Assembly (NCBI GenBank): GCA_014360805.1
Contig: JACIWU010000036.1
Coordinates: 1-32,825 of the forward strand
Direction of reading: 5' to 3'
Length of the DNA stretch: 32,825 bases
From: Chloroflexota bacterium
GTDB taxonomy: Bacteria; Chloroflexota; Anaerolineae; DTLA01
In this document: in pieces, positions 1 through 20,929 of the stretch
Layout: every line of letters starts with the position of its first letter
Numbering within the stretch: the first letter of the stretch is position 1
The notes under the pieces: model-generated
What the model saw: the letters and a program-made list of their open reading frames with translations, nothing else
What the model was told of the DNA's origin: nothing
Databases searched by the model: none
Position numbers and translations under genes: made by a program

Positions 1-85
1 GAGCAGCGTCGCGCGGGTTACGGTGGATCCGGCCCAGGTGGCCGAGCGAACGAGACGGTTCATCTACGAAGGCTACCTGGCGTAG
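1..85 (+). CDS. C-terminal fragment of an unknown protein (truncated by window edge)
   Basis: An open frame enters from the left edge and ends at the TAG at 83-85, giving the last 27 residues (…VARVTVDPAQVAERTRRFIYEGYLA). Composition and codon use look coding. The fragment is too short to assign a family. It is in the same orientation as the Mut7-C gene and could be the upstream member of its operon, though a strong hairpin lies between them. Confidence 0.5.
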   Translation, partial: SSVARVTVDPAQVAERTRRFIYEGYLA

Positions 86-93
86 AGAAAGTG

Positions 94-138
94 CCCCGCG
101 GGCCGGCGGTTGGGTCGCTTCAACCACGGCCCGCGGGG
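94..138 (+). promoter_or_regulatory. Strong GC-rich hairpin between two genes
   Basis: An 11-bp perfect stem pairs 94-104 with 128-138 and is continued by an inner 5-bp stem (GGTTG at 108-112 with CAACC at 121-125) closed by an 8-nt loop. No T-run follows, so it is not a classical intrinsic terminator. It ends 13 nt before the first possible start of the Mut7-C gene and may stabilise the upstream mRNA or limit read-through or translation of the next gene. Confidence 0.5.
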
Positions 139-151
139 ATGGCGGTGGCCG

Positions 152-913
152 ATGATGCGCGTGAGCCTCCGCTTCTATGCAGAACTGAACGATTTTCTCC
201 CGCCCGAGCGCCGGATGGTGGAGTTTGAGCATCTGGCGGCCGACCGCGCGTCGGTCAAGGACGTCATTGAATCCGCCGGCGTGCCCCATGCCGAGGTGGA
301 TCTCATCCTCGTGAACGGCGTCTCGGTGGACTTCGCCCATCCGGTGTCCGACGGCGACCGCATCAGCGTGTATCCCGTGTTTGAATCGCTGGACATTACG
401 CCGGTGATTCGCCTGCGCCCGCGCCCGCTCCGCAACCCGCGGTTCATCTTGGACACGCATCTGGGCAGGCTGGCGACGTACCTGCGAATGCTGGGGTTTG
501 ATAGCCTGTATCGCAACGACTACGACGATGCGGAGATCGCGCGCATTGCCTGCGACGAGAATCGCATCATCCTCACGCGGGATAAGGGCTTGCTGATGCG
601 GAACGCGGTTACCCATGGGTATTGGGTGCGGGCGACACGGGCGGAGGATCAGACGGTGGAGGTGATCCGGCGGTTTGACCTGGCGGGGCAGGTGCGCCCG
701 TTCAGCCGCTGCATCGTGTGCAACCAGGAGTTGCGGCCCGTCGCGAAGGGGGCGATCGCAGACCGCCTGCCGCCGAAGACGCGACAGTACTACGAGGAGT
801 TCTCCATCTGCGATTCGTGCGGCCGCATCTACTGGAACGGCTCCCACTATGAGCGCATGCGGCGGACGGTGGATTGGATTCTATCTGAGTCTCGCGGAGG
901 TGAGGGGAGATGA
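152..913 (+). CDS. Mut7-C RNase-domain protein with N-terminal ubiquitin-like domain
   Basis: About 253 residues. Residues 1 to about 85 form a MoaD/ThiS-like beta-grasp domain (begins RVSLRFYAELNDFL, ends near DGDRISVYPVF), matching the Mut7-C_ub architecture. The rest is the Mut7-C PIN-related RNase domain (PRFILDTHLGRLATYLRMLG, then DDAEIARIA and ILTRDKGLL), followed by a C-terminal zinc ribbon with CxxC pairs (CIVC and CDSC). The family is predicted to be a metal-dependent RNase; substrates are unknown. The frame extends upstream to 110, but homology begins at the double Met at 152/155, preceded by GGTGG; either Met could be used. The stop overlaps the next start as ATGA, so the following lipoprotein gene is translationally coupled. 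Confidence 0.85.
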   Translation: MMRVSLRFYAELNDFLPPERRMVEFEHLAADRASVKDVIESAGVPHAEVDLILVNGVSVDFAHPVSDGDRISVYPVFESLDITPVIRLRPRPLRNPRFILDTHLGRLATYLRMLGFDSLYRNDYDDAEIARIACDENRIILTRDKGLLMRNAVTHGYWVRATRAEDQTVEVIRRFDLAGQVRPFSRCIVCNQELRPVAKGAIADRLPPKTRQYYEEFSICDSCGRIYWNGSHYERMRRTVDWILSESRGGEGR

Positions 914-1488
914 GGATGCGCGTGGGAGTGGTCTTGCTGGCGTGTGTAGTGGGCGTTGTGATTGCGGGCTGTGGTGGGGAGCGCGGCCCAACGCCGACGC
1001 CCGCGCTGACCGCACCGGGGGCGACCGTCGGGACGCTGACGCTCACTAGCCCGGCGTTCCCTGCAGGTGGCGAGATTCCGCGCAAGTACACGTGCGACGG
1101 GGAGAACGTCTCGCCGCCGCTGGAGTGGGGAGCGCCACCCCAGGGCACGCAAAGCCTTGTGCTCATCATGGACGACCCGGACGCGCCGGCGGGCGTGTGG
1201 GATCACTGGCTGCTGTACAACCTGCCGGCGGACGCGCGCGGGCTACCCGAGGGGATCGCACCCGACGCAGCACGGCCTGACGGGAGCCGCCATGGCGCCA
1301 ACAGTTGGGGGCGGCTCGGCTACGGCGGGCCGTGCCCTCCCAGCGGCACACACCGGTATTTCTTCCGGCTCTATGCGCTGGACACGACGCTGAACCTGGC
1401 GGCGGGCGCGAACAAGGCGCAAGTGCTCGCGGCCATGGCCGGGCACGTGCTGGCGCAGGGCGAACTGATGGGCACGTATCGGCGGTAG
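910..1488 (+). CDS. YbhB/YbcL-family (PEBP, Raf-kinase-inhibitor-like) lipoprotein
   Basis: 192 residues. The N-terminus is a type II signal peptide: a short basic start (MRMR), a hydrophobic run and a lipobox ending VIAGC with Cys at about residue 20, so the protein should be lipid-anchored on the outer face of the membrane. A short Thr/Pro-rich spacer follows, then a complete phosphatidylethanolamine-binding-protein fold of the bacterial YbhB type: IPRKYTCDGENVSPPLEW, the ligand-site segment LVLIMDDPDAPAGVWDHW, and GPCPPSGTHRYFFRLYALD. Bacterial members are thought to bind anionic ligands; no reaction is established. It starts inside the stop codon of the Mut7-C gene (ATGA). Confidence 0.93.
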   Translation: MRMRVGVVLLACVVGVVIAGCGGERGPTPTPALTAPGATVGTLTLTSPAFPAGGEIPRKYTCDGENVSPPLEWGAPPQGTQSLVLIMDDPDAPAGVWDHWLLYNLPADARGLPEGIAPDAARPDGSRHGANSWGRLGYGGPCPPSGTHRYFFRLYALDTTLNLAAGANKAQVLAAMAGHVLAQGELMGTYRR

Positions 1489-1545
1489 TGCGCGCGATGG
1501 GGTAGCCGTCTATGCCCTCATGATGGCACGGTTACCGGAAGTGCG

Positions 1546-1845
1546 TTACATAGCGGGGGTGCTGGCCAGCATCTCCTGTTTCAACTTGTTGGCCGACCAG
1601 AGGGGCACGCCGACTTGGATCACGAGTTGAATGGGGATGCACACGAAGCCCACGATGAGCGCGAGCAGCAGCGAGATGGCTACCGCCGCGATGATGTCAT
1701 ACACCAACCAGGCGATGAGGCGGATGATGCCGTCGTTGGTGCGGCCAGCGTAGAAATAGCCGAGGCCGAGTAGGCCGAAGAACCCGCCGACGAACTCAAT
1801 TAGAAAAGCCGTGTTGGGATCCTTGGGGCTAATTCCCGTTGCCAT
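1546..1845 (-). CDS. Small TM2-domain-like membrane protein
   Basis: 99 residues. Two hydrophobic segments dominate: FLIEFVGGFFGLLGLGYFYAG, with the Gly-rich turn typical of TM2 proteins, and a longer segment around LIAWLVYDIIAAVAISLLLAL running into LIVGFVCIPIQLVIQ. The start at 1845 (MATGISPKDPN) is chosen because AGGAGG lies 6 nt upstream; the frame extends to 1872 without such support. It is convergent with the lipoprotein gene and downstream of the glycosyltransferase gene in the same direction. TM2 proteins have no agreed biochemical function. Confidence 0.75.
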   Translation of the reverse strand: MATGISPKDPNTAFLIEFVGGFFGLLGLGYFYAGRTNDGIIRLIAWLVYDIIAAVAISLLLALIVGFVCIPIQLVIQVGVPLWSANKLKQEMLASTPAM

Positions 1846-1939
1846 CGGTAGCCTCCTGTGTGGCGAAATCACCGCGCTCGGTGTGGACGCACACTAGCGG
1901 AAATCCGTCAGCGTGTCAAACGTCAATTGGCTCAACAGA

Positions 1940-3988
1940 TCACCGGTCGGGGTCATCCGACCCTACGGCATATCGCGTGAGCAGGAGCAGCCCGTCCATG
2001 CGGCGGCGGTATTCGGTCAGCGAGCCGCCCGGAAAGCGCGATTGGAGTTCGGGCAGAATGTCGGCCTGGTCGGGCAGGATGTAGAAGCGCAAGGGCTGAT
2101 TGGGGTTCAGGCTGTCTATCACGGCGGGCACGCAGCCCAGGAAGCGGTCGCCCGAGACGTAGGCCGTGGGCGAATGATAGACCTTCCCCGAGGCGTCTAC
2201 TCCCTCGTGCGTGCAGAGCAGGAACGCGCCCTGTCCGCGGTGTCGCTCGTAGTCCAGCGCGGCGACCGTTACCGCTTCCTGCGTGGGCGTCTTGTACGCC
2301 TGGTGGACGTTGTACACGCCGAAGTAGAAGTGGATGTCCAGGGCGATCAGGCAGGCGGCGACGAGGGCCGCGATGCGCGTGGCTGCCTGGGGCGTCCATC
2401 CTAGCGCCTGCGCCAACTTCTCTGCCCCCGCGTCTATCCCGATGGCGACAACCAAGATGGCCGCCGGCAGGACGCCGAGCAGGCGGTGGAATGTGGCCGC
2501 GTCGGTGATGAGCACCGAACCCAGGGTCAGGACGACGAGCATCCAGGCGACAAGCCCCTGATAGGCGGGCTTCTTGATGCGGGCGAACACGGCCAGGAGC
2601 CCGATGAGGAAGATGGGGCCTTGTGCCGGGTGAAGCATCGCCTGCTGCGGATGGTAGAATGTGCCGCGGTCGGGCACGGCGGTGAAGACCAGGAGGCTAT
2701 CGCGCACCTGGTACCACCAGAGTTTCCATTCGGGCAGGCCCATCTGCGCCGACAACTGCTGCATCTTGTCGGAGAAGGGCATGGTCAGGAACAGGTGCTC
2801 GGAGATGCTCCCCGGGTTTCGCAGCCAGTGCCCGAATAGCGGCCCGGCAGTTACCAGCGTAACGAGCGCGAAGCCGAGGAGCAGTTTCCACGAGCGTAGC
2901 GTCCCGCGCCCATCGGCGATGAGCCATACGACAAGCGTCGCGAGGACGACGAAGGGAATGGCGCGGGTGCCGAAGTAGAAATACTGGGCGAACCCCAGGC
3001 CGAACCCCGCTATCGCATACGCCCAGGCGCTGCCGGTGGCCCCGGCGATCCACAGCGCGGCTAGCACCCACGCAATGAACAGGCTGTCGCCGTTGTTGTT
3101 CAGCCCCAGGCGGCTGAAGTGAACGGCTGTGTTGGACCCCAGCGCCAGGAGTCCTGCGATGACGGCCACGCGGCGGCCCCAGCAGGTTCGCGCCAAGACA
3201 TACAGCGCGACGACCATGAGCGCGCCCGCGATGGCCCAGGGTAGGCGCAATGCGAAGAACGTCCTGCCGAAGGCGCGGATGAACAGGCCGTTCAGAAAGA
3301 ACTGGAGCGTGGGATGGGTGGCCCAGCCGGTGGCGAAGGGGTCTGTCGCCAGACCTTCGGCCCCATCTGCTGCCGACAGGCCCAGCGACGCCTCGTCGGG
3401 GTCCACGCCCATGGGGATGGTCTCCAGGTACGGGATGCGGAGCAGGAGCGCGCCTGCCAGGAGCAGCGCGACGATGAGCCAGTCGCGTCGGCCGAACGGC
3501 TCCGGCCGGGGGAGGCCCAGGCGGATCGCCTGCGGCTCCAGCCGCGCGACGGCCCCGATGACGAAGGCGCATGCCACGCCCCACACCAGCAGCAATTGCC
3601 ACGTCTGCGCCCAGTGTTTCCACCCGCCTGGGTTGAGGGCGAGGGGCAGCATGATGTGGAGGCCAACGGCGGCCTGCACCCAGTCGGTGCGCGCGCGGGG
3701 GATCGCAGGCCGGACCCTCAGGGCGAGGAGGAGCAGGTTTGCGGCGATGATGGTGAACCCCCAAACCTGGGCGTGCGGGATGGCGCGGAGGAGGAACTGG
3801 CCGATGTACATACCGACGAGTGGCAGGAGGAGATACACGACAGATGAGAGTTTCGCCTTCTGTTCATCGCGGAGGGCCAGGCGAGGCATCCTGGCAGCCG
3901 CTATCAGATTCCTGATGCGGCGGGGAACTGAACGATAGGGCGAGGTGCTGTGGCCCGCGTCGGAGGATTGTCCAGGCTGCTCATACAT
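1940..3988 (-). CDS. GT-C fold membrane glycosyltransferase (GT39/PMT_2-like)
   Basis: About 682 residues with many predicted transmembrane helices. The first extracytoplasmic loop carries the acidic motif expected of dolichyl-phosphate-mannose:protein mannosyltransferase-like enzymes (IPYLETIPMGVDPDEASLGL). Such enzymes transfer a sugar from a polyprenyl-phosphate donor to proteins or lipids on the outer face of the membrane. The N-terminal 60 or so residues are polar and basic and probably cytoplasmic. The start at 3988 (MYEQPGQ) has AAGGAG 9 nt upstream; the longer frame to 4027 overlaps the promoter -10 and is unlikely. The donor and acceptor cannot be deduced. The nearby giant secreted protein is a possible but unproven substrate. 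Confidence 0.82.
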   Translation of the reverse strand: MYEQPGQSSDAGHSTSPYRSVPRRIRNLIAAARMPRLALRDEQKAKLSSVVYLLLPLVGMYIGQFLLRAIPHAQVWGFTIIAANLLLLALRVRPAIPRARTDWVQAAVGLHIMLPLALNPGGWKHWAQTWQLLLVWGVACAFVIGAVARLEPQAIRLGLPRPEPFGRRDWLIVALLLAGALLLRIPYLETIPMGVDPDEASLGLSAADGAEGLATDPFATGWATHPTLQFFLNGLFIRAFGRTFFALRLPWAIAGALMVVALYVLARTCWGRRVAVIAGLLALGSNTAVHFSRLGLNNNGDSLFIAWVLAALWIAGATGSAWAYAIAGFGLGFAQYFYFGTRAIPFVVLATLVVWLIADGRGTLRSWKLLLGFALVTLVTAGPLFGHWLRNPGSISEHLFLTMPFSDKMQQLSAQMGLPEWKLWWYQVRDSLLVFTAVPDRGTFYHPQQAMLHPAQGPIFLIGLLAVFARIKKPAYQGLVAWMLVVLTLGSVLITDAATFHRLLGVLPAAILVVAIGIDAGAEKLAQALGWTPQAATRIAALVAACLIALDIHFYFGVYNVHQAYKTPTQEAVTVAALDYERHRGQGAFLLCTHEGVDASGKVYHSPTAYVSGDRFLGCVPAVIDSLNPNQPLRFYILPDQADILPELQSRFPGGSLTEYRRRMDGLLLLTRYAVGSDDPDR

Positions 3989-4017
3989 GGGTTGATGCTC
4001 CTTGCTGTGTTGCGGGC

Positions 4018-4046
4018 AGTCTAGCATATCGCGATGAGAGGGTCAA
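4018..4046 (-). promoter_or_regulatory. Sigma70-type promoter of the GT-C gene
   Basis: Read on the minus strand: -35 TTGACC (4041-4046), 17-nt spacer, extended -10 TGC-TAGACT (-10 at 4018-4023). This places the transcript start about 20-25 nt before the chosen start codon. A 13-bp perfect dyad, GTCAACTATTGAC (4042-4054), overlaps the -35 and is a plausible operator. Confidence 0.65.
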
Positions 4047-4411
4047 CTATTGACTCTCGCTACTCCAATGCAACGCTCACGTCTCCATTTCGGCCTGTCT
4101 GACCAGGGAGCGCGCTAGACGTAGGGCAAATTGGCAATTTGCCCCACTTGGCCTACGATGACCGCCGAGAGGGCAGCGCCGACCGAACGTGCGACCTTCC
4201 GAGACGGTAACCGCGGATGAACGCGAATCCACGCGAAGGGGGAGATGGAGAGTACTTTGGGCGCCCCATGCCCTTGCACTGACGGTTTCCAGCGGGCTTG
4301 GGAGCCGAATCTGTCATCCCGCGGGATGGCGAGGGAGTGGGACTGCTGTTGAGGGCGAACGGCCGCGGCGAGAGCGGTGGGCTTATGCGCTCGGTTGAAG
4401 CATTGGGGGCG
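4047..4411. other. Intergenic region without a supported gene
   Basis: This stretch lies between the GT-C promoter and the end of the tungsten operon. It holds the inverted repeat described separately (4120-4157) and, around 4205-4240, text of the form ACCGCGGATGAACGCG that resembles interspersed intergenic repeats seen in other genomes. Short frames here have no recognisable protein and no convincing ribosome binding site. No clear terminator for the tungsten operon was found. Confidence 0.5.
4120..4157. repeat. Nested inverted repeat (palindromic intergenic element)
   Basis: The core is a perfect inverted repeat: GGGCAAATT (4124-4132), 3-nt spacer GGC, AATTTGCCC (4136-4144). Outer arms CGTAGG (4120-4125) and CCTACG (4152-4157) also pair. 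It could be a dispersed palindromic repeat or an operator; its distance from any start codon favours the former. Confidence 0.6.
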
Positions 4412-4792
4412 CTACGCCTCTGTGTCCCGGTACGAGTGGTGCAGCCCCAGGTCCTCAGCCTCGTTGATGGCGCGCGCCATCTCGGGGATCATGGCCGCGC
4501 CGTGCCGATATTGGAAGGGCCACATGCTGCGGGGGTCAAAAATGCCCACCCGGTCGCCGTCCTTGAGCACGTGCCCTAGGTCGGGCTGGAGGCCGGGCAT
4601 GGCGCTGAGGTTGCCGCTGATGAAGGTGATGCCGCGCTCTTCCGTAGGGAGGCCGAGATGCTTGAGGAGGTCGGCCATGGTGCTGCCTTCGGGCAGGCTG
4701 ACTTTCAGGTTGGCGTGCGCGGACTCGGCGGCCTCTCCGCCGTACTTGGCCAGCGCGCCATAGAGCCACACGTCCACTACGATGTTTGCCAT
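4412..4792 (-). CDS. MoaD/ThiS-like beta-grasp protein with C-terminal extension, no terminal Gly-Gly
   Basis: 126 residues. Residues 1 to about 88 follow the MoaD/ThiS pattern (IVVDVWLYGALAKYGG…LPEGSTMADLLKHLGLP…VLKDGDRVGIFDP), but where MoaD ends in Gly-Gly this protein continues for about 38 residues and ends YRDTEA. It therefore lacks the thiocarboxylate-forming terminus and is unlikely to be a standard sulfur carrier. It may be a scaffold or regulator for pterin cofactor assembly. It is the last gene of the tungsten operon. Its start is 1 nt after the upstream MoaD stop codon, and its ribosome binding site (GGAGGAGGG) lies within that gene's last codons. Confidence 0.75.
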   Translation of the reverse strand: MANIVVDVWLYGALAKYGGEAAESAHANLKVSLPEGSTMADLLKHLGLPTEERGITFISGNLSAMPGLQPDLGHVLKDGDRVGIFDPRSMWPFQYRHGAAMIPEMARAINEAEDLGLHHSYRDTEA

Positions 4793-4793
4793 T

Positions 4794-5033
4794 CTACCCT
4801 CCTCCGATGGGCGGGAAGATCCCGACCTCGTCGTCGTTGTTGAGTGCGAAGTTCAGGGGCTGGGCGCGCCCGTTGACGAAGATCACCCGCACCTCATCGG
4901 GCGGCAGGCCCAGTTCGCGGATGAGCGTCTCAAGCGTCGCTCCGTCGGGGAGTTCCACGTCCACGGGGTTCCCCGATGGCCTGCCTGCGAGATAGCGGCT
5001 CAACCCGGCGAACAGTTTCACATGTACGCGCAT
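4794..5033 (-). CDS. MoaD-family sulfur carrier protein ending in Gly-Gly-Gly
   Basis: 79 residues from the ATG at 5033 (MRVHVKLFAGLSRYLAG), with GAGGTG just upstream; a GTG at 5039 is an alternative. It is a complete beta-grasp protein (VDVELPDGATLETLIRELGLP, then VIFVNGRA) ending IFPPIGGG. The terminal glycines are the expected site of adenylation and thiocarboxylation, for molybdopterin synthase-like delivery of dithiolene sulfur to the tungsten pterin. MoaD-like genes commonly accompany AOR-family oxidoreductases. No MoaE or MoeB is in the window, so the partners must be encoded elsewhere. Confidence 0.87.
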   Translation of the reverse strand: MRVHVKLFAGLSRYLAGRPSGNPVDVELPDGATLETLIRELGLPPDEVRVIFVNGRAQPLNFALNNDDEVGIFPPIGGG

Positions 5034-5040
5034 GTTCACC

Positions 5041-6228
5041 TCACGGACACCGCACGATGTCCTGCGCCCACAGGCAGTCCGCGCAGGACGGGTTCCATCC
5101 CCAGCATCCTTCGTTCCGCTCGCGCAGGTCGCAGGTTTCTCTCAGGTCGCAGTCCGGGCATGACGGGAAGTGGAATCCCCGCACCTCGCTGCGAAAGCGG
5201 ACGTACTCCTCGGACGTCCAGATGCTGGCCAGGGACTGCTCATTTACGTTGCCCAGGACGTAGCGGGTTACCTGCTTTTGCCTGCCGTCAATGGCGAAGT
5301 ACGTGTAGTTGTGCGACAGGGCGTAGCAGGGCGAGACCCCGCCATCCCATCCTACCACAATGGCGCGGTCTTGGACAAATCGGCAGCGCCGCTCGGCGCC
5401 CCAGTGCATGCGGGGCAGTTCCAGCGTTCCCCAGGTAACCCATGCATCCAGCGACACGGGCCAGCCGCCCGCATTGAAGGGCGGGCGCGGCTCGTAGCCG
5501 TAGAGCATCTCGTCGCGCATGTCTGCGGTGTAGGCCAACACGTTGCTTACCAAGACGCGGGCCGCGCCCAGCCGAGAGGCCAGGCCGGTGAGCAGGCCCA
5601 GTTCGGCGACGTTGCTTTTGAGGGCGACGAACTCAATGCCCAGGGCGGGAACGAGCGACGCGCGGCGCGCCTTGGCGTCGTTCACGTGGCGGATGTTTTC
5701 CAACACCTGCGAGATCATCGCGCCGCGCACGCCCGCGTAGGTCTCGGGCTTCACGCCGTCCACCGACACGACCAGCCGGTCTACGCCGAGCCGTACCAGT
5801 TCGTCAGCCATCCTTTTGTCCAGTAGGAGGCCGTTGGAGCCGACCGTTACGGCCAGCCCTCTCTCGCGCACGGCCTGGATCATGTCCAGGATGTGGGGGT
5901 GGGTGAGGGGTTCGCCAAAGCCGGTGAAGATGACCCGCTCAAGGCTGGGGAGTTCGTCCAGGCTGGCGGCGATGCGCGCGAAGATGTCCATGGTCATTTG
6001 GGATTCCGGGTCCTGCCAGACGTTGCGGATGCAGGTGCGGCAGTGGAGGTTGCAGCCGGTGGTCGGTTCCACGTACAGTTTGCGGGCGTCGCGGGCGCAG
6101 GGGTGCAGGATCAGATCGCCCTCGCGCTCGTCCAGCCAGTACTCGGAGTCCGGCGGGATATGGCGGCGCTGGAGGAAATCTTCCGGGAGAACCAGTCGCC
6201 CTTGCTGGTCTGCGATCACTTTGGGCAT
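5041..6228 (-). CDS. Radical SAM maturase of tungsten AOR-family oxidoreductase, with N-terminal AbrB-like domain
   Basis: About 395 residues from the ATG at 6228, with GTGGGGA 6 nt upstream. Residues 1 to about 45 resemble a SpoVT/AbrB-type swapped-hairpin domain (VIADQQGRLVLPEDFL). The radical SAM motif is CNLHCRTC (C59, C63, C66), followed by FTGFGEPLTHP and VSVDGVKPETYAGVRG. The C-terminus is a SPASM-like Cys-rich region (CRF, PCYALSHN, CPDCDLRETC, CADC) suited to auxiliary Fe-S clusters. This architecture matches the radical SAM proteins paired with tungsten aldehyde oxidoreductases (cmo/W_rSAM_matur type), thought to modify the cofactor or the enzyme. It lies directly downstream of the AOR gene and 7 nt before the MoaD start codon. 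Confidence 0.88.
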   Translation of the reverse strand: MPKVIADQQGRLVLPEDFLQRRHIPPDSEYWLDEREGDLILHPCARDARKLYVEPTTGCNLHCRTCIRNVWQDPESQMTMDIFARIAASLDELPSLERVIFTGFGEPLTHPHILDMIQAVRERGLAVTVGSNGLLLDKRMADELVRLGVDRLVVSVDGVKPETYAGVRGAMISQVLENIRHVNDAKARRASLVPALGIEFVALKSNVAELGLLTGLASRLGAARVLVSNVLAYTADMRDEMLYGYEPRPPFNAGGWPVSLDAWVTWGTLELPRMHWGAERRCRFVQDRAIVVGWDGGVSPCYALSHNYTYFAIDGRQKQVTRYVLGNVNEQSLASIWTSEEYVRFRSEVRGFHFPSCPDCDLRETCDLRERNEGCWGWNPSCADCLWAQDIVRCP

Positions 6229-6248
6229 GGGATGTCCCCACAAAGACA

Positions 6249-6280
6249 GACCTCCCGCAGAGCAACGCCTGCGGGAGGTC
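6249..6280 (-). terminator. Perfect 12-bp hairpin between AOR and its maturase gene
   Basis: GACCTCCCGCAG (6249-6260) and CTGCGGGAGGTC (6269-6280) pair perfectly around an 8-nt loop. On the minus strand the hairpin is followed by TGTCTTTG, a weak U-tract. It sits 11 nt after the AOR stop and 20 nt before the maturase start, so it is likely a partial terminator or mRNA-stabilising hairpin that would make AOR more abundant than the maturase. Confidence 0.6.
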
Positions 6281-6291
6281 GTGATGGGATA

Positions 6292-8046
6292 CTACAGTTC
6301 GCCGAAGACCGAGTCCAGGGCCTCGTCCGGCACATCAAAGACCTGATTGTGCGGCGGGAGCGGCTCGTACTTCATGAACTCGGGCACCCGGTCGGCTTCT
6401 TTCGGGATGCCGGCAGCCTCGTTGAACGCGCGCTCCTTCTTGAGGATTTCGGCGCCCAATTTAGCCGCGTCCTCGGACTTCCAGTTGGTGCCCAGGACGC
6501 CGTTGCACTCCTGCATCATGCCCTCAAACCCGCTGGCGATGTCCAGGATGGCGAAGGCGATGAAGAGGCAGTGGCCTGTGGAGTCAATGAAGGCGGTGGT
6601 GGCCTGGAAGGCGCGGCTCAGCGCGGCCTTGCCCTCGGGGCTGAGCGGGTCCTGCTTGCCGCTGACGCCCAGGATTTCGGGGGCGATGGTGTAGCCGGCG
6701 GTGTGGTCGGCGCCCATGGTGGTCGTGGCGTAGGTGATGCCGATGCCCTTGACCGCGCGCGGCTCGTAGGCGGGCATGGACTGGCCCTTGACCACGGGCA
6801 CGCGGGTCAGGCCGAAGGCCTTGCCGGCGAACGCGGTGCCGCCGCCCAGAATGCGGCCCATGGGCGTGCCCTTGCCCATCTCGTGCACCAGGTTGATGGC
6901 GCCCTTGCCGTCGCCGAACTTGATGACGCCCGCCTCCATGGCCACGGCCAGGGTGGTGCCGGTCTCAATGGTGTCCAGGCCGTAGGCATTGCACAGGCGT
7001 ACCAGTTCCGCGATGTCGTCAAGATCATCAATGCCGCAGTTCGCGCCCAGCGACCAGTCGGACTCGTATTCCACGCAGGAGACGTGCTCGCTGCCATCGG
7101 CCTTGTGCCAGGTGTTGGAGCACTGGATGATGCAGCCGGGGCTGCAGGCATGGTTGTAAAGTTCTTTGCCGAGGCGTTTCTTGTTGCCCTCAAAGATGGC
7201 CTCGCCGGCGATTTTGGCCGCGCCTTCAAAGCGGCCGCTGGAGAAGTTGCGGGTTGGCAGGCCGCCTGCCTCGTTCAGGATGTTGATGAGGACGGCGGTG
7301 CCGTAGGTGTTGAGGCCGCCCTTGGGCTTGGTGATGTCGTGGGTGCGGAGGGCGTCAATGAGTTTCTTGCGGCCCTCGTCAAAGAGCGCCTTGTCCTTGA
7401 TGACCACGCCGGGGGCACCCTTGGGGTCGGCGATGATGAACTTGAGGCCGCGGCTGGCCATGACTGCGCCCATGCCGCCGCGCCCCGAGTAGCGGCTGGG
7501 CCGTCCCGCCATGTCGTTGAACACGACGCCGGAGTTGCCGTAGCCGAACTCGCCCGCATTGCCGGTGCCGGCGATGGAGACCTTGTCGCCGAACTTGGCG
7601 TACAATTTGGGGAAGATCTCGTATAGGTCTTTACCGGCGTACTCGTTGGCGGGCATGAATTCCACCTTGGGCTTGCTGGCCTTCTCGTCCCAGGTGATGT
7701 GGGCCAAGTGGTAGCCTTTGCCCTGGCCCTCTACGACGATGGCTTTGATCTGCATGTTGGCGATGTGCTGCGCCCAGGACGTGCCGGCGTTGGACTCCTT
7801 GATGCCGCCGGTGAGGGGCGACTTGGCCCCGACGGACACGCGGGCCGACGTGGGCGCGACGGTGCCGGTTACGATGCCCGGGGCGAAGACCAGTTTGTTG
7901 TTCGGGCCCAGGGGATGGCACAGCGGGGGAACTTCGTCGTGCACGATGGTGGAGGTCAACCCGCGCCCGCCCAGTTGCTGGTACTTGGCGGGGACCTCCT
8001 CAAGGCGATAGGACAGGTCTGCCATGTTCAACCGAAGGATCCACAT
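6292..8046 (-). CDS. aor: Tungsten-containing aldehyde:ferredoxin oxidoreductase
   Basis: 584 residues, close to the usual 600 or so. AOR-family enzymes oxidise aldehydes to acids, or the reverse, passing electrons to ferredoxin, using a tungsto-bispterin and a [4Fe-4S] cluster in the cytoplasm. Visible motifs include LGGRGLTSTI near the N-terminus, the pterin-domain segment APTSARVSVGAKSPLTGG, and SRYSGRGGMGAVMASRGLK. Cluster Cys are C301, C305, C309 (CSPGCIIQC) and the distal C493 (GHCLF). The proximal spacing is Cx3Cx3C, against Cx2Cx3C in the Pyrococcus furiosus enzyme. The start at 8046 (MWILRLNMADL) is chosen because AAGGAGGTG ends about 7 nt upstream. It is the first gene of the tungsten operon. 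The substrate cannot be deduced. Confidence 0.94.
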   Translation of the reverse strand: MWILRLNMADLSYRLEEVPAKYQQLGGRGLTSTIVHDEVPPLCHPLGPNNKLVFAPGIVTGTVAPTSARVSVGAKSPLTGGIKESNAGTSWAQHIANMQIKAIVVEGQGKGYHLAHITWDEKASKPKVEFMPANEYAGKDLYEIFPKLYAKFGDKVSIAGTGNAGEFGYGNSGVVFNDMAGRPSRYSGRGGMGAVMASRGLKFIIADPKGAPGVVIKDKALFDEGRKKLIDALRTHDITKPKGGLNTYGTAVLINILNEAGGLPTRNFSSGRFEGAAKIAGEAIFEGNKKRLGKELYNHACSPGCIIQCSNTWHKADGSEHVSCVEYESDWSLGANCGIDDLDDIAELVRLCNAYGLDTIETGTTLAVAMEAGVIKFGDGKGAINLVHEMGKGTPMGRILGGGTAFAGKAFGLTRVPVVKGQSMPAYEPRAVKGIGITYATTTMGADHTAGYTIAPEILGVSGKQDPLSPEGKAALSRAFQATTAFIDSTGHCLFIAFAILDIASGFEGMMQECNGVLGTNWKSEDAAKLGAEILKKERAFNEAAGIPKEADRVPEFMKYEPLPPHNQVFDVPDEALDSVFGEL

Positions 8047-8107
8047 TTTGAACACCTCCTTGTGATTTGTGGGGGCAGGGGCGCTGCCCGATTCCTTATC
8101 CGATTGT

Positions 8108-8151
8108 CAAAAACAAAAGGCAACGTCGGCCCGGACTGGGCTTCGGTTGCC
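8108..8151 (-). terminator. Intrinsic-terminator-like hairpin inside the AOR leader
   Basis: On the minus strand, GGCAAC pairs with GTTGCC (outer arms of 8119-8151) and the inner GCCC pairs with GGGC. The hairpin is followed directly by TTTTGTTTTTG (8118 down to 8108). It lies about 60 nt upstream of the AOR start and downstream of the operon promoter, so termination here would control the operon. Confidence 0.6.
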
Positions 8152-8199
8152 TCCTTTGCAAACACGGCAGGCGCAGGGATTGCTCCCCACACCCTATCG

Positions 8200-8227
8200 C
8201 CCACTCCTCCCGGTGGGAGAAGGTGGG
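8200..8227 (-). repeat. Stable leader hairpin
   Basis: CTCCTCCC (8204-8211) pairs with GGGAGAAG (8215-8222) around GGT, with one G-U wobble in RNA, and CCCA/TGGG extend the stem past a one-base bulge. It may be a structured leader element or a remnant of an interspersed repeat. Confidence 0.5.
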
Positions 8228-8285
8228 TCGGAGGTCTGTCCCGGGTGTTTGGTTGTGGCCATGCAGAATTCCATCCTGCGAATAC

Positions 8286-8314
8286 ATTATACGCGAATTC
8301 TCGTCGGATGTCAA
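8286..8314 (-). promoter_or_regulatory. Perfect consensus sigma70 promoter of the tungsten operon
   Basis: Read on the minus strand: TTGACA (8309-8314), exactly 17 nt, TATAAT (8286-8291). Both hexamers and the spacing match the consensus. It points toward the AOR gene. Confidence 0.85.
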
Positions 8315-8456
8315 TCGCTTTCGGCGGCCAATTTTGCGAATCGGTCTTCCCTCTGCGAAGCCGTCCGCGGGGGCGGCTGTAGCGGTGAAACGGTGCGCAA
8401 AATAGGACACAGAGGGTCTATATGAACAAACTGTAACACACAGGCAGAACATTTTG

Positions 8457-8465
8457 TGCTATAAT
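8457..8465 (+). promoter_or_regulatory. Extended -10 promoter of the giant secreted protein gene
   Basis: TGC-TATAAT (8457-8465) is an extended -10 with no good -35 at the usual distance. The predicted transcript start near 8472 leaves a leader of about 50 nt with GGGGAGG before the ATG at 8522. The earlier ATG at 8477 would be almost leaderless and is not preferred. Confidence 0.6.
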
Positions 8466-8521
8466 CATAGGGGGCGATGCGAGTCCCGCCGTTATGTCTT
8501 CTTTGCTGTGGGGAGGTGCTT

Positions 8522-11500
8522 ATGCGGAGGTACGTGGACAGGTACGCGCTGGCCTTCGCGGCGGTGTTCTTCGCTGCCGCGGCGCTCTTCTTTGGGATGA
8601 CCCTGATGGCCCATGCGCGTCCCCAGCCGAATGCTACTGCGTGGGGCGGCAATGACGGCCCGATCGCCCAGGATTCGGCCCTCGTCGTCGCGGTTACGGG
8701 GCCTTCGGTGCCTGTGGAAATCTGCGGCACCGCCAGGTTCACGGTTACGGTAACCAACCTGGGGCCGGATCCGGCCGACAACGTCGTGATCCAGAGCGCC
8801 ATGCCCGCAGGGTTTTCGCCAACGCCGCAGTCGGAGAACAAGGGCACGGTCGGCGTGGGCCAGATGGTTACTTCCACGTTCACATTCAACGCCGGCTGCG
8901 AGGCCGTCTCCGGCGATAACACGACGACCGTCTCCTATACGGGCGGCACTGACATCATCGTGTACACGTCGTTCGTGGTGAACCCGGGCGCCCTGTCGCT
9001 GACGAAGGAAGCGATTGCCGTGAACGGGGTCCCCATCGCGCCTACCACGTCGCCGTCCGCGTCTATCGGGGATGAGATCACGTGGCGGATTGTCGCGCAG
9101 AGCAGCGGTCTTGGCCCCATCTCCAACGTCGTCGTTACGGACGTGGTTGGCAGTGGGATGCAGTACGTTTCCTCCACGCCGCCCGGCACCTACAACGGCA
9201 CGGATACGATCGTGTGGACCGCCACCGAGGTTCCTGCGCTGGCCCGGATTGAGGCAGGGCAGGCGGTTACGCTCACCGAGGTTACGTCGGTGCAATCGTG
9301 CAGCGACCTGATCAATATCGCGCGGGCCACATGGGGGTGCACCGGCGAGACGTGTCAGACTCCCGAGGAAGCGCAGGCCAGCGTCGCGTTGCGACTCAAG
9401 GAACCGTTGCTTGCCTTCACCCCGCCGAACGTTGCGCTGCCGTATTGTTCACCCTCCATTTCGGTGAGTTTTGATGTGCAGAACACGGGCGAGGGCGCGG
9501 CGAGGAATGTGTTCCTGGCCGTGGATTTGACCGGCTACAACGTAACGGTTACGTCTCCGGGCGCCAGTTACGTGTGGTCGCCAACGCCTGGGTTCATCCT
9601 GCCCGACATTCCGGGCAGCGGCTCCTACACGCTGTCCTATCAACTGTCGTTCGCGGGGAATTGGTGCAGCAGCACGCCGCCCTCAGGGTCGCGCACCTGG
9701 TTCCCCACCTACGAGGATGATTGTGGTGTCGTATTCCACACGCCGGTTCGCACCAATTCGCTGAGCATCAGCGGCGGGCCGCCCTCGCTGTCGCTCAGCA
9801 AGTCAGGCCCCAGCGTCGCGGCCCTGGGCGATGACGTGCAGTACACGATCAACGTCAGTTACACCGGGGGCCTTTCCTGCGGCGCGGGAGGGGAGGCCGG
9901 CGACATTACTGTTACGGATACGGTTCCGGCAGGCTGGAGCGTGCTGGACGCCGATGGCGGGACCGTGGTGGACGGCAAGATCGTCTGGACGGGCATAGAC
10001 CCTGCTACGGGGGCCACGCTGCGCCCCACGTTCCACATTTCGGGCACGAATGAGAGCGGCTGCGACCTCTGCGGCAACGTCTACACTAACCAGGTTACGG
10101 CGTCAGTGCAGGATTGCTGCGGGTGCATCCGCACGGCATCGGCCTCGGCAACGACGGCGATAGAATGCCCGCAGACCGACATCGGCTTGGAGTCAAGCCG
10201 CACCATCGCCTCCGCCTATGACTTTGAATATTGCACGCCCATCACCTATACCAACACGTACACCTTTGACGATAACGCCCGCTGGGATAACGTCGCGTGG
10301 ACCGACCTCCTGTTCACCGAGGACATGCCTGCGGGCCAGGCGTATGTCTCCGGGTCGGCGCGGGTGCTGATCAACAGCGTGGACTACACGAGCCAGGTTG
10401 CGGTTTCGGTCGTGGGCGGCCACCTGGTGTTTGACTTCAGCGGCGGGACGTTCCCGCCCAGTGTTCGCAACAGCACCCTCGTGATCCAGTATGCGCTGGA
10501 CACGCATCCTTCCGGGTGTGGCGCGTCTACCACGTGGTACGATTTTGCCACGCTTGAGGTGGACATCACCGGCGATCCAGGGTTTGAAGGCCCGTGTACG
10601 ACGGCGGGGGACACGCTGGTAACCCGCGACGTCGTGGAGCCGACGGTGTACGGCTCCACCATGAGCGTGGAGGTTACGGGCATCCCGGACATTGTGTCCT
10701 CTTGCGGCACATACGTCATCACGGTTACGCTCACGCGCACGTCGGCGATGGACGCCTATGATGCCCTGCTGTTCCTGGATAGCAGCAACTACGAGATCAT
10801 CACGGTAACGGGGTGGTCCGGGCTTGAGCCACTGTCGCCGCTGGAGGGCACGCCTGTGCCGGGCGGGTACGAGTGGAACTACGGCGACCTGTTTTCAGGG
10901 GGCAACACGACCGCTGAACTTTACATAACCGTGCAGGCGCGGTGTCTGTCTACATCGTCGCTACCGGTTACCCTGTACTATAACAACCGCTGCAATGACC
11001 TGGCGTCTCCATCTTTTCCCATGGACGTGGCCAGCCCGGATCGGCAATGCTCAACGTCGGCCAGCGATTCGGGCCTTGTGCTGGATCCGGTGTTGACGGT
11101 GTACAAGTTCCCCGAGATGAAGTGGGTGTCGGGTACACAAGTCGCATGGCATGCTCACATCATCAACTCGGGTGCGGGGATAGCGCATGCCGTGCAACTC
11201 ATAGATGAGATGGGCCCCAGCCAGAGTTTCAACACCGCCGTTTGGAGCGACGCCACCGGTGTAACCACGTACACGAATCAACTTCCCGATGGCACGCCTA
11301 TCAACGGCGTGTCATGGGTCTTGTCGCTGGACCCGGGCGAATTCCGCGAGGTGGACATCATTGCCGATGTCGTGGGCTGCCAAGACGATGTCAACGTGCT
11401 GACCATGCAAACGAAGTGCCTGGGTGCGGTCTGCTCCGGGCCGGTGAGCGACTCCTCAACCCTACTGTTCCCGCCGGCCAACCTGGTTGCTACGTCCATG

Positions 11501-14500
11501 GCATATACACCTATCAACCCGTGTGGCCAGACCGATGTCGTCCTCACGGTGCGCAACGCGGGCCTGGCGCCGCTGTTTGACCTGGAACTCAACCTGACGT
11601 TGCCTGCCGGGCTGACCTACGCGGCGGCGCCCAACGCGGAGTACCGCGTCAACGGCGGCCCCTGGCTGGGCCTGGGGAGCAGCGAGCCGCTGATCACGCC
11701 GACGTCGCTGGTGTGGAGTTACACTCAGGGCGATTCCGGCCTGTTTGGCTACCTGGACAAACTGGACCCGGACACCACGGTGGAGGTGCGCTTCACGGTG
11801 GATGTGGCCTGTGAGTTCGTTCAGAGCCAACTGGCATTTTATGCGTCTTACACCGACTGCAAGACCGGCGGTCGCACCCAGACGGCCACCAGTTACTTCA
11901 GCGTCCGGCCGAACAATCCGATTCTGACCGTGTCCAAAGTCCAGACGCCCGCCGGCAACATCACCTGCGGCGCGCCCGTAGTCTGGACGATTACGGTGAA
12001 CAACGCCCTGCTGGGCACGGATGGCGCGCCGGTTACGGCAAAAGTGGTAACGCTCGCCGACACGCTCGGTGGCGCGTTCAACTTCGTGGACCTGCGCGAG
12101 GGCGGCGTCTCTGTCCCGAATCGTCAGGTGGTCGGGCAGACGGTAACTTGGGAGGTGGCGAACTTGGGCCCGGGCGAGACGCGCACGTTTACGCTCCACG
12201 CGACGCTGGACAACGCGCCGTGCAGCCCGTCGCTCGGCAACACGGTATCGGCGGCGTGGGGCTGTGGGGACCCGGACGAGGACCCGTCCACGCCGGCCAC
12301 CTGCCAGGGCACGCCGGTAACATCTAGCGCCACGGTAACTCGCGCCACACCTAACATCGTGGCGTCGTTCGCTCCGTCCGCGCTGGCTGCCTGCACGTCG
12401 GGCAATTTGGTTACGATTACGCTCACGAACAACGACTCTGTGGCGACGGCCTACAGCCCTGCCGTAGCGATCACGCTGCCATCGGGGGCCGCCTACGTGG
12501 CGGGCACGGCGAATCCGATCCCTAGTTCTTCTACTTCCACGCGCCTCGTTTACAACGCGGGCATCTTGCCGGACCTGGGGCCCGGGGAATCCACGACGAT
12601 CAGTTTCCAGGTGGATCTGCTGTGCATCCGCAGCGGCTCTTTCAACGTGAGCGGCTCGTATCTGGACTGCTGCGACAGTTTGCACACGCTGAATCAAAAT
12701 GTGGGGCCGACGTGGCAGTATCCGACCCTCACGATCACGAAGACCCCGACAACGCAGGCGATTCTGCCGGACAACGACGTTACCTGGACCATCCGCGTTA
12801 CCAACACTAGCGCGGTTGCAACGGCGGGCTACATCCTGATTGAAGACACGCTGGGCAACGGATTCTCGTTCGTAACCGCCACGAACCCGGCCACGGGCAT
12901 CGGCGACTTTGTGAACGTGGGGCAGAGCGTTACGTGGGAATTGGACGACCTGGGGCCCGGCCAGAGCAAGACGGTAACCCTGACTGCTCACTACAACGGC
13001 ACGGGCAATGACTGCAATTCCACCCTGCGCCGCAATCGCGCCCGCGCCACGTGGGGGTGCGATAACGACGACAACATTGACGGAGACCCCACCACAACCG
13101 CCGACAGGGATTGCGCGAGTGGGGTGTACACGTCCTACGCCAACGCCTACGTAACCAGTCCCGACCTGTACTTCTCGGCCGGGCCTACGTACACGTGCAA
13201 CACCGATGGCTCCATCACCGTGTCTGGGACGGTGCGCAATCACACCGACCAGAGCAACACGGCCACGGGCGTACAGGTGCGCATCATCGTGGACGGCGGC
13301 GCGCCCATAACCCTGTCCACGACGCCGGCCAACCTCAACCCGGGCAGCACCGGCACGTTCTCGTACAACACGGGGCCCCTGGAAACCGGCGTGCCGCACA
13401 CATTCCAAGTGGTCATAGACCCCGCCAACACGATTGTGGAGTGCAACGAGACCAACAACTCGGCCAGCGGGGCCGCGACGTGCAATGTGCCGGTGCTGGA
13501 CTTGACGAAGGACATCGCCCAAATCACGCGGGGCGGGGAGGTCCTGACGTCCTTCTCCAACATTCAACAGGGCGACCTCATCCGGTATCGCATTCGCATC
13601 AACAACCCGGGCGCGACGACGGCGTACAACGTGGTGATTACGGATGTGTTGCCGTCGCCGCTGGCGCAATTCGTGTACCAGGCCGGTTCCACTCAGGCGA
13701 CTTGGCCGAACTACGCGGGCACGTACACCACCGACCCGACGGGCACCGGCTCTGCTGCGGACCCGCTGACCTGGACGTTCGCCGATGTGCCTCCTCGCGG
13801 CGCGACCATTGACCCGGGCGAGACGCTCACGCTGACGTTTGAGGTCCTCGTGGGCAATGACATCACCGACGGCGCGAGTTACACCAACACGGCCTATACC
13901 ACGGCCCAGGATGGCTATGGGCAGGATTTGCCCGACGACTGGGACGACGAGACGCTCCCTGGCGCGCTCCCCGGCCTCGTGGTGGACAAGACCATCGCAG
14001 ACATCAACGGCGGGCCGAATGACGGGTACGCCGAGCCGGGCGACATCGTTACGTACCGCGTTGTGGTTACCAATGTGGGCGCGGGCAACGCCTACTCGCT
14101 GGTGCTGACCGACACGCTGCCGCCTGCCTTTGAGTACGTAGCGGGCACTACCCTGGCCGCATGGCCCGGCGGCTCCTACACCAGCGACCCGACAATCAAC
14201 GGCGCGACGCTGTTCTGGGACATCGGCGCGACGCTCCAGGGCGGCACGCCGACCGGTGAGGCGCTGACGCTCACCTTTGACGCGCGGGTAACGGCGGCGG
14301 TAACCCAGGGCGTAACGTACACCAACGTTGTTACGGCAGCGGGCAAGACCGGCGCAGACGTCCCCATCCCGCCCGATTCGGGCCTGCCCGACGACACCGA
14401 CCCGGACGATTCGGATGACATTTCGCTCACGGGCGCGCGGCCCGGCCTGGTGCTGGACAAGAGCATCCCGCTGCTGATTCGGCAGGGCACGCCTATCCTG

Positions 14501-17500
14501 AACCCGACGACAGTAGAGGCGGGCGACATCGTCTCGTACACGGTGGTGGTAACCAACGTGGGGCTGGGCACGGCGCACAACCTGGTGCTGTCGGATACCC
14601 TGCCTACGGCATTTGAGTACGTGGCGGGTTCCACCATGGCCACGTGGCCCAGCGGCTCGTACACTAGCGATCCGGTGCAGGGCGGCGGCTATCTCCGCTG
14701 GAACGTCGGCGCGACACTGAACGGCGGCGACCCAATGGGCCAGGCGCTGACGCTGCGCTTCGCCCTGCGCGTAACGTCGGCCATCGCGCGCGAGCAATTC
14801 TATCCGAACACGGCCCTGGTCAACGGGCGCGACGGTTTGGGCACGCTGATTCCCGCGGACTCCGGCGACGCCGAAGACAATGACCTGGATGACCAAGACG
14901 ATGCGACGCTCCAGGCGCTGAAGCCGGCGCTGGTAACGAGCAAACTCGTCGCCGATATCAACGACCAGCCGAGCGATGGCACGGTGGAGCCAGGCGACAT
15001 CGTTACGTTCCTGGTAACGGTGCGCAATGTGGACCGCGGGACCGCGTACAACGTGGTGGTAACGGACACGCTGCCGTCGCCGGGTTGGGTCTATGTGCCA
15101 GGGACGACCTACGCGGAGTGGAACGGCGGCGCGAATACGTACACGGGCGATCCCACCATCACGGACGGTGGCGCGGTGCTCCATTGGCCGATCGGCGCCA
15201 CGCTCGTCGGTGGCAGCCCCGTCGGCGACATCCTGACGCTTCGGTTTGACGCGCGCGTAACGTCGGACATCGTGTCGGATCAGACCTACACCAATGCGGT
15301 GTGGTTCACGGGCGAGGACGGCGCAGGCACGCCGATTCCCGCCGACACCGAAGACCCCGAAGACACCGATGATGACGACCAGGACCGCGTCCAGTTGCTG
15401 GGCCTGGAGCCCGCGCTGATCATGGACAAGGCGGTGGTGGACATCAACGGCCAGCCCTCGGCGGGGACCGTCGTGGCGGGGGACGTGGTAACCTTCACGA
15501 TTGTCGTTACCAACGTCGGGCCGGGCGCGGCGTACAACGTGGACGTTACCGACCTCATGCCGTCGGGCTGGCAGTACGTCGCCGGGAGCACGCAGGCCAA
15601 CTGGCCTTCGGGTTCGTCCACGGCTGACCCGACGGTGGCGGGGCAATTGCTGACGTGGGACTTGAGCGCGACGCTGAATGGCGGAGACCCCACGGGTGAA
15701 ACTCTCACCCTGCGGTTCAAGGCGCAGGTAACTTCTTCCGCCATCGCGGGGCCGAACACGAACACCGGCGCGACTACAGGCGAGGACGGCGCAGGCACGC
15801 CGATTCCCGCCGACACCGGCCAGCCGAATGACACCGACCCCGACGACCAGGATCAGGAAACGCTGAACATGCTGAAGCCCGCGCTGGCGGTGGACAAGGA
15901 GATTACCCGTATCTTTGACCGCAACGGCGTGGAGGTTTCGCCCACGCCCACGGGCGTTGAGGCGGGCTATCGGGTGGAGTATCGCTTCGTCGTTACCAAT
16001 GTGGGCACGGCCACGGCTTATAGCCTGAACGTTACCGACACGCTGCCTGCGGGCCTGGCGTACCACGCGGGGACGTCGGCGCTCAACGGCGCGCCCATAG
16101 CCGACCCGTCCGTCGAGGGGCAGAATCTCATCTACACGCTGAACCACACGCTGGCGGCGGGCGAGCGCATGACGCTCACGCTCCGCGCGGATGTTACCAG
16201 CGCCATCGTGGCTAACGCGACGCTTACCAATGTGGCCTACGTCCGCGGGCGAGACGCTTCGGGCGCAGTGATCCCCGGCGAGAACACGGATTTGGGCGAT
16301 GTCAGCGATCCCGATCCCGACGACCCTGACGCCGACGACACCGGAAGCGAGTCGGTTACCGCGCTGGTCCCGGCGCTGGACGTGAACAAGGACATCGTTC
16401 GCATCTACGACCGGCTTGGCGTGGAGATTTCGCCGATGCCGTCGGCGGTGGAGCCTGGGATGCGGATTGAATACCGCTTCGTGGTAACGAACGTGGGCAC
16501 GGGCACGGCGTACAACGTGGATGTAGAAGACCGCATGCCCATTGGGCTGGATTACCGCACGGGCACGTCCACGCTCAACGGCGCGGGCATCGCTGACCCA
16601 AGCGTTGCGGGGACGCCAGGCACCGGCCAGACGCTGACCTACGACCTGAACCACACGCTAGCGGCGGGCGGGCGCATGACGCTGACGCTACAGGCGACGG
16701 TAACCAGTCTGGTAACCCAGGGCACGGACCTGGTGAACTACGCCGAGGCGACGGGCTACGACGGCGCGGGCACTGAGATTCCCGACGCCAATGCTGTCCT
16801 GGGCGACGTGGCGGATTCGGATCCCGATGATGCCGACGCCGACGACACCGGCCGCGAGGATATCGGCGTCGTCGTGCCCGCGCTCAACGTGGACAAGACG
16901 GTCGCGCGTGTCTACGACCGCATGGGGTCCCAGATTAGTCCTACGCCGTCCGCGGTGGAAGCCGGCTACACGGTGGAGTATCAGTTTGTCGTAAACAACG
17001 TGGGTGGCGGCACGGCCTACGGCGTGGATGTGGTGGACAATCTTCCGGTGGGTCTGGAATATGTAACGGGCAACAGCGCCTTGAACGGCGTTCCCATCGG
17101 CGACCCCGCCGTTGTGGGGACGCCGGCGACGGGCCAGACGCTGACCTATGACCTCAACGCCACGATACCGGCGGGCGAGGCCATCACACTGACCTTCCGC
17201 GCGCGTGTAACGAGCCTTATCCGCGCGGGCGTCCCGCTGACCAACACGGCGGAGGCTACCGGCTACGATGGCTACGGCACGGAGATTCCCGATGCGAATC
17301 CGGGCATTGGAGACACGTTTGACCCCGACCCCGATGACTCGGATGCCGACGACACCGGCAGCGAGACGCTGGATACCCTTGTTCCGGCCCTGGATGTGGA
17401 TAAGATTGTCCTGCACCTTTGGGACAATTTCGGCACGCCGATCCCGACCACGTCTCCGGTGGAGCCGGGTTATCGCGTGGAATACCAGTTCGTGGTAACG

Positions 17501-20500: not shown

Positions 20501-20929
20501 TGGCGACGCCTGGGTGGGCACTACGTGTCCGTCGCGGGCACGTGCCTGGTGAGCAACCAGGTGGCCTTGAGCGACCCGTGGCGGGACGGGGCGGAGATGG
20601 GGATGAGCGCCGGGCGGGTCTTGCCGCCGCACAGCCCGCACCTCGGCGATGCTACGGTCCACAACGACGCGCAGATGGTTAGCCACGACTTGTACGGCGT
20701 GCAGCCCTCGGCCAGCCCGGGCGGCCTGTGGGAACTGATGGGATACGCCCCGGCCTACGAGGAGATTGCCAACTTCGTGGGCCTGAACTGGGCGCAGGAC
20801 TTGCGTGCGTACCAGGGCGAGTACAAGGGCGGTGCCATCCACGTGGAAGCGGAGTATGCGATCCTTCTCACGCGGGCGAACCACCCGGTGGTTCGGCGAT
20901 ACCTGCCCATCCTATGGAGCATTGAGTAG
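8522..20929 (+). CDS. Giant secreted DUF11-repeat protein with Pro/Thr stalk and C-terminal peptidase-like domain
   Basis: 4135 residues. The start at 8522 has GGAGG 5 nt upstream and gives a type I signal peptide ([12 protein letters not shown]…LMAHA). Modules in order: about 11 divergent DUF11-like beta-sandwich repeats containing many Cys (to about residue 1545); a CARDB domain (about 1546-1656, ending [12 protein letters not shown]); 12 tandem DUF11 repeats of about 155-170 residues without Cys (about 1657-3595), each with a TNVG…YNV…DTLPSG core and an Asp-rich tail such as [11 protein letters not shown]; one further beta domain with Cys; a Thr/Pro linker (about 3719-3804); and a 331-residue C-terminal domain with a papain-like layout. 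That domain has Asp3841 in [10 protein letters not shown] where a Cys nucleophile would be expected, plus His4000 (GGHYVSV) and Asp4018 (LSDPW). It ends [11 protein letters not shown]. Likely a cell-surface or extracellular fibre. No LPXTG sorting signal is seen. Confidence 0.9.
13491..19306 (+). repeat. Twelve tandem DUF11 modules within the giant gene
   Basis: The module boundaries fall near 13491, 13977, 14446, 14929, 15415, 15883, 16375, 16882, 17389, 17893, 18367 and 18842, ending at about 19306, with period about 465-507 bp. Each module starts with a hydrophobic strand plus DK (for example LVVDKTI, LDVNKDI), has the TNVG core, and ends with an acidic linker. Modules 6-9 form a longer subtype with the linker ending DADDTG; the others end in forms such as DTDPDDQD. 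Confidence 0.85.
16481..17863 (+). repeat. Recent internal duplication: near-identical copies 1011 bp apart
   Basis: 16481-16852 and 17492-17863 align end to end with few differences, including an identical 33-bp block encoding the acidic linker. The offset of 1011 bp equals two modules. Module 9 therefore resembles module 7 much more than its neighbour module 8, which fits a two-module duplication or gene conversion. Confidence 0.8.
19678..19931 (+). repeat. Low-complexity Thr/Pro-codon tract (stalk region)
   Basis: Dense ACG/CCG codon repeats encode about 85 residues of alternating Thr-Pro with some Ser, Ala and Arg. In the protein this should be an extended, possibly O-glycosylated spacer between the repeat fibre and the C-terminal domain. 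Confidence 0.85.

Follow-up and report, generated by a model that had tools for sequence, protein, structure and literature searches.

Regulski et al. (2008, PMC2408646) found that 58 of 176 Moco RNA members lack the P3 helix, an absence that tracks tungsten-cofactor metabolism. Four members carry a GCAA tetraloop, and all four lack the tetraloop receptor (PMC2408646). One paper describes the exact ligand of the Moco/Tuco riboswitch as still unidentified (PMC10845959). Biochemical proof has been elusive because the cofactors are unstable. Here, we analyze a leader RNA of a Chloroflexota bacterium that has no P3, a GCAA loop, and no receptor. It thus fits both of the 2008 correlations.

The window, i.e., the whole stretch of DNA that was analyzed, is the 32,825 nucleotides of contig JACIWU010000036.1 (assembly GCA_014360805.1). 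On its minus strand, a perfect TTGACA-N17-TATAAT promoter lies 5′ of a leader of about 233 nt and a gene for aldehyde ferredoxin oxidoreductase (AOR). A preliminary description had pointed out this promoter and a leader of about 230 nt with a terminator-like hairpin. Both hold up: the promoter is the sole 12/12 match in positions 1–20000, and the hairpin sits mid-leader and is followed by UUUUGUUUUU. The base composition predicts about 0.001 perfect sites per window. Three sites matching at least 9 of 12 positions are seen in 1–20000, versus 3.5 expected from shuffles. In the relatives described below, a match of at least 10/12 is found 5′ of the RNA in 12 of 16 AOR leaders (4 of 800 shuffles), and such a match in 38 of 44 leaders from named genomes, a set partly overlapping the 16 (27 of 880 shuffles). 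At the other end of the leader, the AOR ATG, at 8046, lies 3′ of AAGGAGGTG. The features are collected in Table 1.

Table 1. Features of the AOR operon and its leader, in window coordinates.
Feature	Position	Strand	Evidence or remark
-35 hexamer TTGACA	8309..8314	-	promoter scan; kept 5′ of the RNA in relatives
-10 hexamer TATAAT	8286..8291	-	promoter scan; spacer 17 nt; predicted transcription start about 8279
Moco/Tuco RNA aptamer, compact P3-less form (RF01055)	8135..8245	-	cmscan, 50.2 bits vs gathering score of 36 bits
P1 5′ strand CCUCC	8230..8234	-	RF01055 alignment, relatives' alignment
P2, CCCAC/GUGGG plus UUCUCCC/GGGAGGA, without 11-nt tetraloop receptor	8200..8227	-	RF01055 alignment, relatives
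P4, GCAA tetraloop at 8183-8180	8169..8194	-	RF01055 alignment, relatives
P5, 8168-8167 with 8159-8158, first pair G-C vs family C-G	8158..8168	-	alignment
P1 3′ strand GGAGG, putative switching sequence, common to terminator 5′ arm	8150..8154	-	RF01055 alignment, terminator scan
Intrinsic terminator stem, 5′ arm 8155-8146, 3′ arm 8124-8115	8115..8155	-	folding, single-hairpin scan
U-tract TTTTGTTTTT / UUUUGUUUUU	8109..8118	-	sequence
Shine-Dalgarno region AAGGAGGTG	8050..8062	-	sequence
AOR gene, presumed regulated gene	6292..8046	-	PF01314 7e-78, PF02730 5e-52
Tungsten cofactor oxidoreductase radical SAM maturase	5041..6243	-	TIGR04317, 432 bits vs cut-off 380
ThiS/MoaD-like protein	4794..5039	-	PF02597
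Second ThiS/MoaD-like protein	4412..4792	-	PF02597, weak

The leader is, with near certainty, a member of the RF01055 (Molybdenum/Tungsten riboswitch) family. The preliminary description had been unable to match it to the Moco/Tuco consensus and considered that it might be a different element, a view overturned by a covariance-model match above the gathering score that spans the full model, positions 1–135 (E 2.5e-9 in the window scan). No other Rfam family matches positions 8000–8480 even at E = 1. P1, P2, P4, and P5 are all present, as is the conserved core (CUCCGA, AAAGGAG), and the family's GNRA loop on P4 is here GCAA. There is no P3: J2/4 reads CGAUA, with no helix inserted. The tetraloop receptor in P2, which is usual but not obligatory in RF01055, is also absent. 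A model of the compact subtype, R1, built from relatives plus the window sequence itself, scores 103 bits at 8150–8236.

The genes adjoining the RNA supply the molybdenum or tungsten cofactor context typical of the family. The operon order is AOR, the TIGR04317 maturase, and the two small ThiS/MoaD-like proteins. Both AOR domains score above their cut-offs (PF01314, 262.9 bits versus 27; PF02730, 177 versus 29.8); the cut-off of the NCBIfam equivalog NF007354 is not reached. The nearest solved structures are AOR enzymes, two of which are labelled tungsten-containing or tungsten-dependent. The earlier suggestion of riboswitch or attenuator control of a tungsten operon is supported. Between the AOR and maturase genes, a 13-bp hairpin with a poor U-tract (6249–6280) is a possible partial terminator or processing site. 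Divergent from the operon, 8477–20929 (plus strand) encodes a predicted 4150-residue protein that contains many similar repeats and, close to its C-terminus, a Thr/Pro-rich linker. Elsewhere in the window are a Mut7-C RNase-domain protein (110–913), whose N-terminus carries a ubiquitin-like (ThiS-like) domain and which shares the window with the operon's two MoaD-like genes, and a 6S RNA (30214–30393, plus strand, 89.5 bits).

AFOR_C is matched nine times in the host genome, which has only two Moco/Tuco RNAs; eight of its nine AOR genes lack the RNA. The second RNA (G000:C6:33181-33328, L001/L003) has P3, the receptor, and a GAAA loop, and it lies 5′ of a tupB-tupC-tupA-type transporter, an assignment based on sequence and Pfam, with a putative substrate. 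It is the only other real member in the genome, so the leader's hairpins are not dispersed through unrelated intergenic regions. Two weak R1 matches, C6:7285 and C67:16235, proved to be GGGGAGAGGGTGAGGG-type low-complexity repeats.

To see how the RNA is distributed, 61 related genomes, host included, were surveyed. RF01055 is carried by 36 of the 60 relatives tallied, with 70 matches listed in all. The compact form accounts for 12 matches of 108–113 nt, with a GNRA loop (mostly GCAA) and neither receptor nor P3. All 12 precede AOR, or an Fe-S subunit gene followed by AOR. In a set of named genomes, the R1 model places the compact RNA directly 5′ of 47 of 80 AOR orthologues; the named and unnamed sets overlap (e.g., G001, G002, G160, and G059 are among L109–L188), and their counts are kept separate. 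Isolates with the compact RNA include Anaerolinea thermolimosa, Levilinea saccharolytica, Ornatilinea apprima, and Bellilinea caldifistulae. The Rfam gathering score misses most Anaerolineaceae copies, including those of A. thermolimosa, Levilinea, and Ornatilinea. The RNA is absent from those Deltaproteobacteria and Spirochaetes AOR orthologues that Rfam scans covered, and from the scanned Chloroflexota orthologues without an R1 match.

The structure is kept before orthologous AOR genes, and its helices covary. Among the 12 compact relatives, 13 of 30 pairs are changed on both sides, P2 contributing 8 of its 12. Such both-side changes fill 29 cells of the alignment versus 12.6 after shuffling, and none of 500 shuffles reached as high a value. 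Paired cells make up 92% of the compact alignment versus 39–53% in slid controls. P5 is invariant within the compact set and thus lies outside the covariation signal there.

Which cofactor is sensed? From the absence of P3 and the gene context, the tungsten form, Tuco, is probably the ligand rather than Moco. The same switch might instead sense the molybdenum cofactor, both cofactors, or a pterin precursor common to the two. Taken by itself, P3 predicts the ligand only indirectly; its deletion in E. coli left specificity unswitched (PMC2408646). P3 may even fail to tell tungsten from molybdenum: the host has a P3-bearing RNA before a tungstate-type transporter, so the rule does not hold strictly here. 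Against this alternative, all 16 AOR-linked RNAs of the first survey lack P3, and tungsten is indicated by the AOR's relatives as well as by the TIGR04317 maturase. We consider a molybdenum-sensing or mixed switch rather unlikely. Contrary to the published rule that P3 goes with molybdenum only, the congeners G001 and G002 also have a P3-bearing RNA before a tupBCA-like tungstate transporter.

The P1 3′ strand (8154–8150) lies wholly inside the terminator 5′ arm (AGGAGGCAAC). Thus, the bound aptamer and the terminator would be mutually exclusive, which predicts an ON switch: with the cofactor present, AOR is transcribed. A dedicated single-hairpin scan gives the terminator -20.5 kcal/mol; when the downstream sequence was shuffled 60 times, no equally strong hairpin taking in the P1 strand arose. 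The hairpin's internal loop kept it off the list of a simple terminator scan. A second hairpin, GGGCAG...CUGCCC at 8073–8089, lies between the terminator and the Shine-Dalgarno site and is also found in G001, G002, G003, and L114.

The proposed sequence of events is as follows. The strong promoter would start the leader, which would fold into a compact Moco/Tuco-family aptamer. Binding of the cofactor, which we infer to be most likely its tungsten form, would hold P1 (8234–8230 with 8154–8150) shut. The terminator 5′ arm would then be unavailable, and polymerase would read into the operon for AOR, the tungsten maturase, and the MoaD-like proteins. Without cofactor, 8155–8146 would pair with 8124–8115, the terminator would form, and transcription would stop near 8110. 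The tungsten enzyme would thereby be made only when its cofactor exists. The second host RNA, before the tupBCA-type uptake operon, would be OFF when bound. ON logic in the window leader is highly probable. The whole model, a Tuco-sensing ON riboswitch controlling the AOR operon, we regard as likely.

A skeptic might take the aptamer as vestigial or constitutive, with the hairpin a fixed partial terminator that tunes a strong promoter and responds to no ligand. Thermodynamic folding strongly favors the terminator: the leader's minimum free energy is -75.5 with the terminator versus -67.6 with P1 forced, a cost of 7.9 kcal/mol for P1, and P1 appears in the folds at none of the transcript lengths tried. 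P1 would therefore have to be brought about by ligand, tertiary contacts, or kinetics. Further, many Anaerolineaceae leaders keep the P1-taking stem with a U-tract interrupted by GCG, making intrinsic termination doubtful in them and leaving some copies without a clean U-tract. Against a vestigial aptamer, the core nucleotides are invariant and the helices covary across families, and the complementarity between P1 and the terminator is kept while the sequence changes. A stem taking the P1 3′ strand is found in 43 of 47 named leaders (shuffles are as strong in 11 of 188). In predicted folds, offered as illustration, an invariant GGAG is followed by compensating changes such as GGCAAC/GUUGCC, GAUCC/GGAUC, and GGUAAAC/GUUUACU. 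We therefore hold a vestigial aptamer to be improbable. In seven Anaerolineaceae AOR leaders (L143, L147, L148, L156, L160, L168, and L184), a UUUGCG(U/C)-UUU tail recurs after the stem, in place of an unbroken U-run.

One fixed rule was applied to the layouts across the family: we call a layout overlapping when the hairpin starts in the P1 3′ strand and separate when it starts after it. Among called terminators in the 61 genomes, operons for AOR or PF00384 molybdopterin enzymes have 20 overlapping layouts and no separate one (in one further AOR leader, L043, no U-tract follows the stem). For biosynthesis and uptake operons, a class that takes in a few whose first gene is unidentified, the counts are 5 overlapping and 36 separate. 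The association gives a Fisher value of 9e-12, which includes related sequences and is indicative only. In other genomes of the phylum, AOR leaders are 2 overlapping, 0 separate, and 2 uncalled (one with the stem), versus 2 overlapping and 39 separate for biosynthesis and uptake (p 0.007, relatedness included, likewise indicative only). The host has one RNA of each layout, the tupBCA-type operon carrying the OFF layout, opposite to that of the AOR RNA. Exceptions exist: the separate layouts of an XDH-like operon (L056) and of three sulfite-oxidase-like operons (L092, L094, and L096) count against a universal sorting rule.

Two sequence signatures accompany the layouts. An anti-P1 segment, CUCCUUUCC, complementary to GGAAAGGAG over at least 5 nt, lies in the terminator 5′ arm or loop in 24 of 40 separate layouts, where it would be the expected antiterminator of an OFF switch, and in the terminator 3′ arm in 17 of 25 overlapping ones. 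The P5 3′ strand is GC in 20 RNAs, 18 of them overlapping and none separate; with GG, 10 are overlapping and 82 separate. The GC variant also occurs in receptor-bearing members, one with P3, before molybdopterin enzymes. Related sequences are included in these counts as well. A broader proposal is that the sign of control is sorted by function within one family, with enzyme operons ON, synthesis and uptake operons OFF, and the P5 G-C swap foreshadowing the sign, and that the compact, P3-less GCAA form is a dedicated Chloroflexota tungsten-cofactor ON sensor, much of it below the Rfam cut-off. We rate this broader proposal evenly between right and wrong. Tandem Moco/Tuco RNAs precede molybdate/tungstate-type binding-protein genes at G006:C28:50541-50856, G025:C130:620-968, and G230:C20. 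Separate-layout Moco RNAs at G162:C1:477368 and G162:C1:902096 (L247, L260) precede NiFe hydrogenase operons, whose genes are without Mo or W.

Another reading is an ordinary feedback (OFF) riboswitch, with cofactor binding causing termination. Repression by Moco is known for E. coli moaA, the member that has been studied best (PMC2408646). Here, however, the 3′ strand of P1 is itself part of the terminator 5′ arm. A ligand-stabilized P1 should therefore block the terminator, and the window leader has no separate terminator that outcompetes the P1-overlapping one. Moreover, feedback repression would bring no benefit for an enzyme that uses the cofactor up. An OFF switch is accordingly very improbable. 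ON logic makes sense for an enzyme that cannot work unless its cofactor is there, and it is the counterpart of the OFF logic at uptake and synthesis genes. Lastly, a new element such as an aldehyde-sensing attenuator, which the preliminary description had put forward as a candidate, has only the gene's substrate in its favor, and no tool result speaks for it. It is barely conceivable given the full-length RF01055 match, on which an aldehyde or unknown-ligand element was rejected, and given that other cofactor genes are preceded by an RNA of the same architecture.

The Tuco-sensing ON model suggests that bacteria gate tungsten-enzyme synthesis on cofactor supply. A natural, predicted ON/OFF pair in one genome, together with the cultured relatives carrying the ON form, makes a genetic test of tungsten versus molybdenum sensing feasible.

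How does the window RNA compare with known systems? It shares with the Moco RNA motif RF01055 (PMC2408646) P1, P2, P4, P5, the core, the GNRA loop on P4, and the molybdenum/tungsten cofactor gene context. It differs from the usual member in lacking P3 and the receptor, in having GCAA rather than GAAA, and in its P5 G-C swap and P1-overlapping terminator. With the Tuco/Wco subclass (Regulski 2008, PMC2408646; Wco in PMC9481103), it shares the lack of P3 and a tungsten-enzyme gene; the window type is distinguished by its compact, receptor-less GCAA form, its large coherent Chloroflexota set before AOR, and its ON layout. No description of an ON-type Moco/Tuco switch was found in the open-access literature searched. 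Already known are the RF01055 family and, glimpsed in 2008 as four GCAA members, the compact form. Within the literature searched, the systematic Chloroflexota AOR link, the P1-overlapping ON platform, and the ON/OFF sorting with its P5 signature appear to be new. In adenine pbuE-type ON riboswitches, the terminator competes with P1. The window RNA resembles them in that the terminator 5′ arm is drawn from the P1 3′ strand and ligand is predicted to activate, whereas aptamer and ligand are unrelated.
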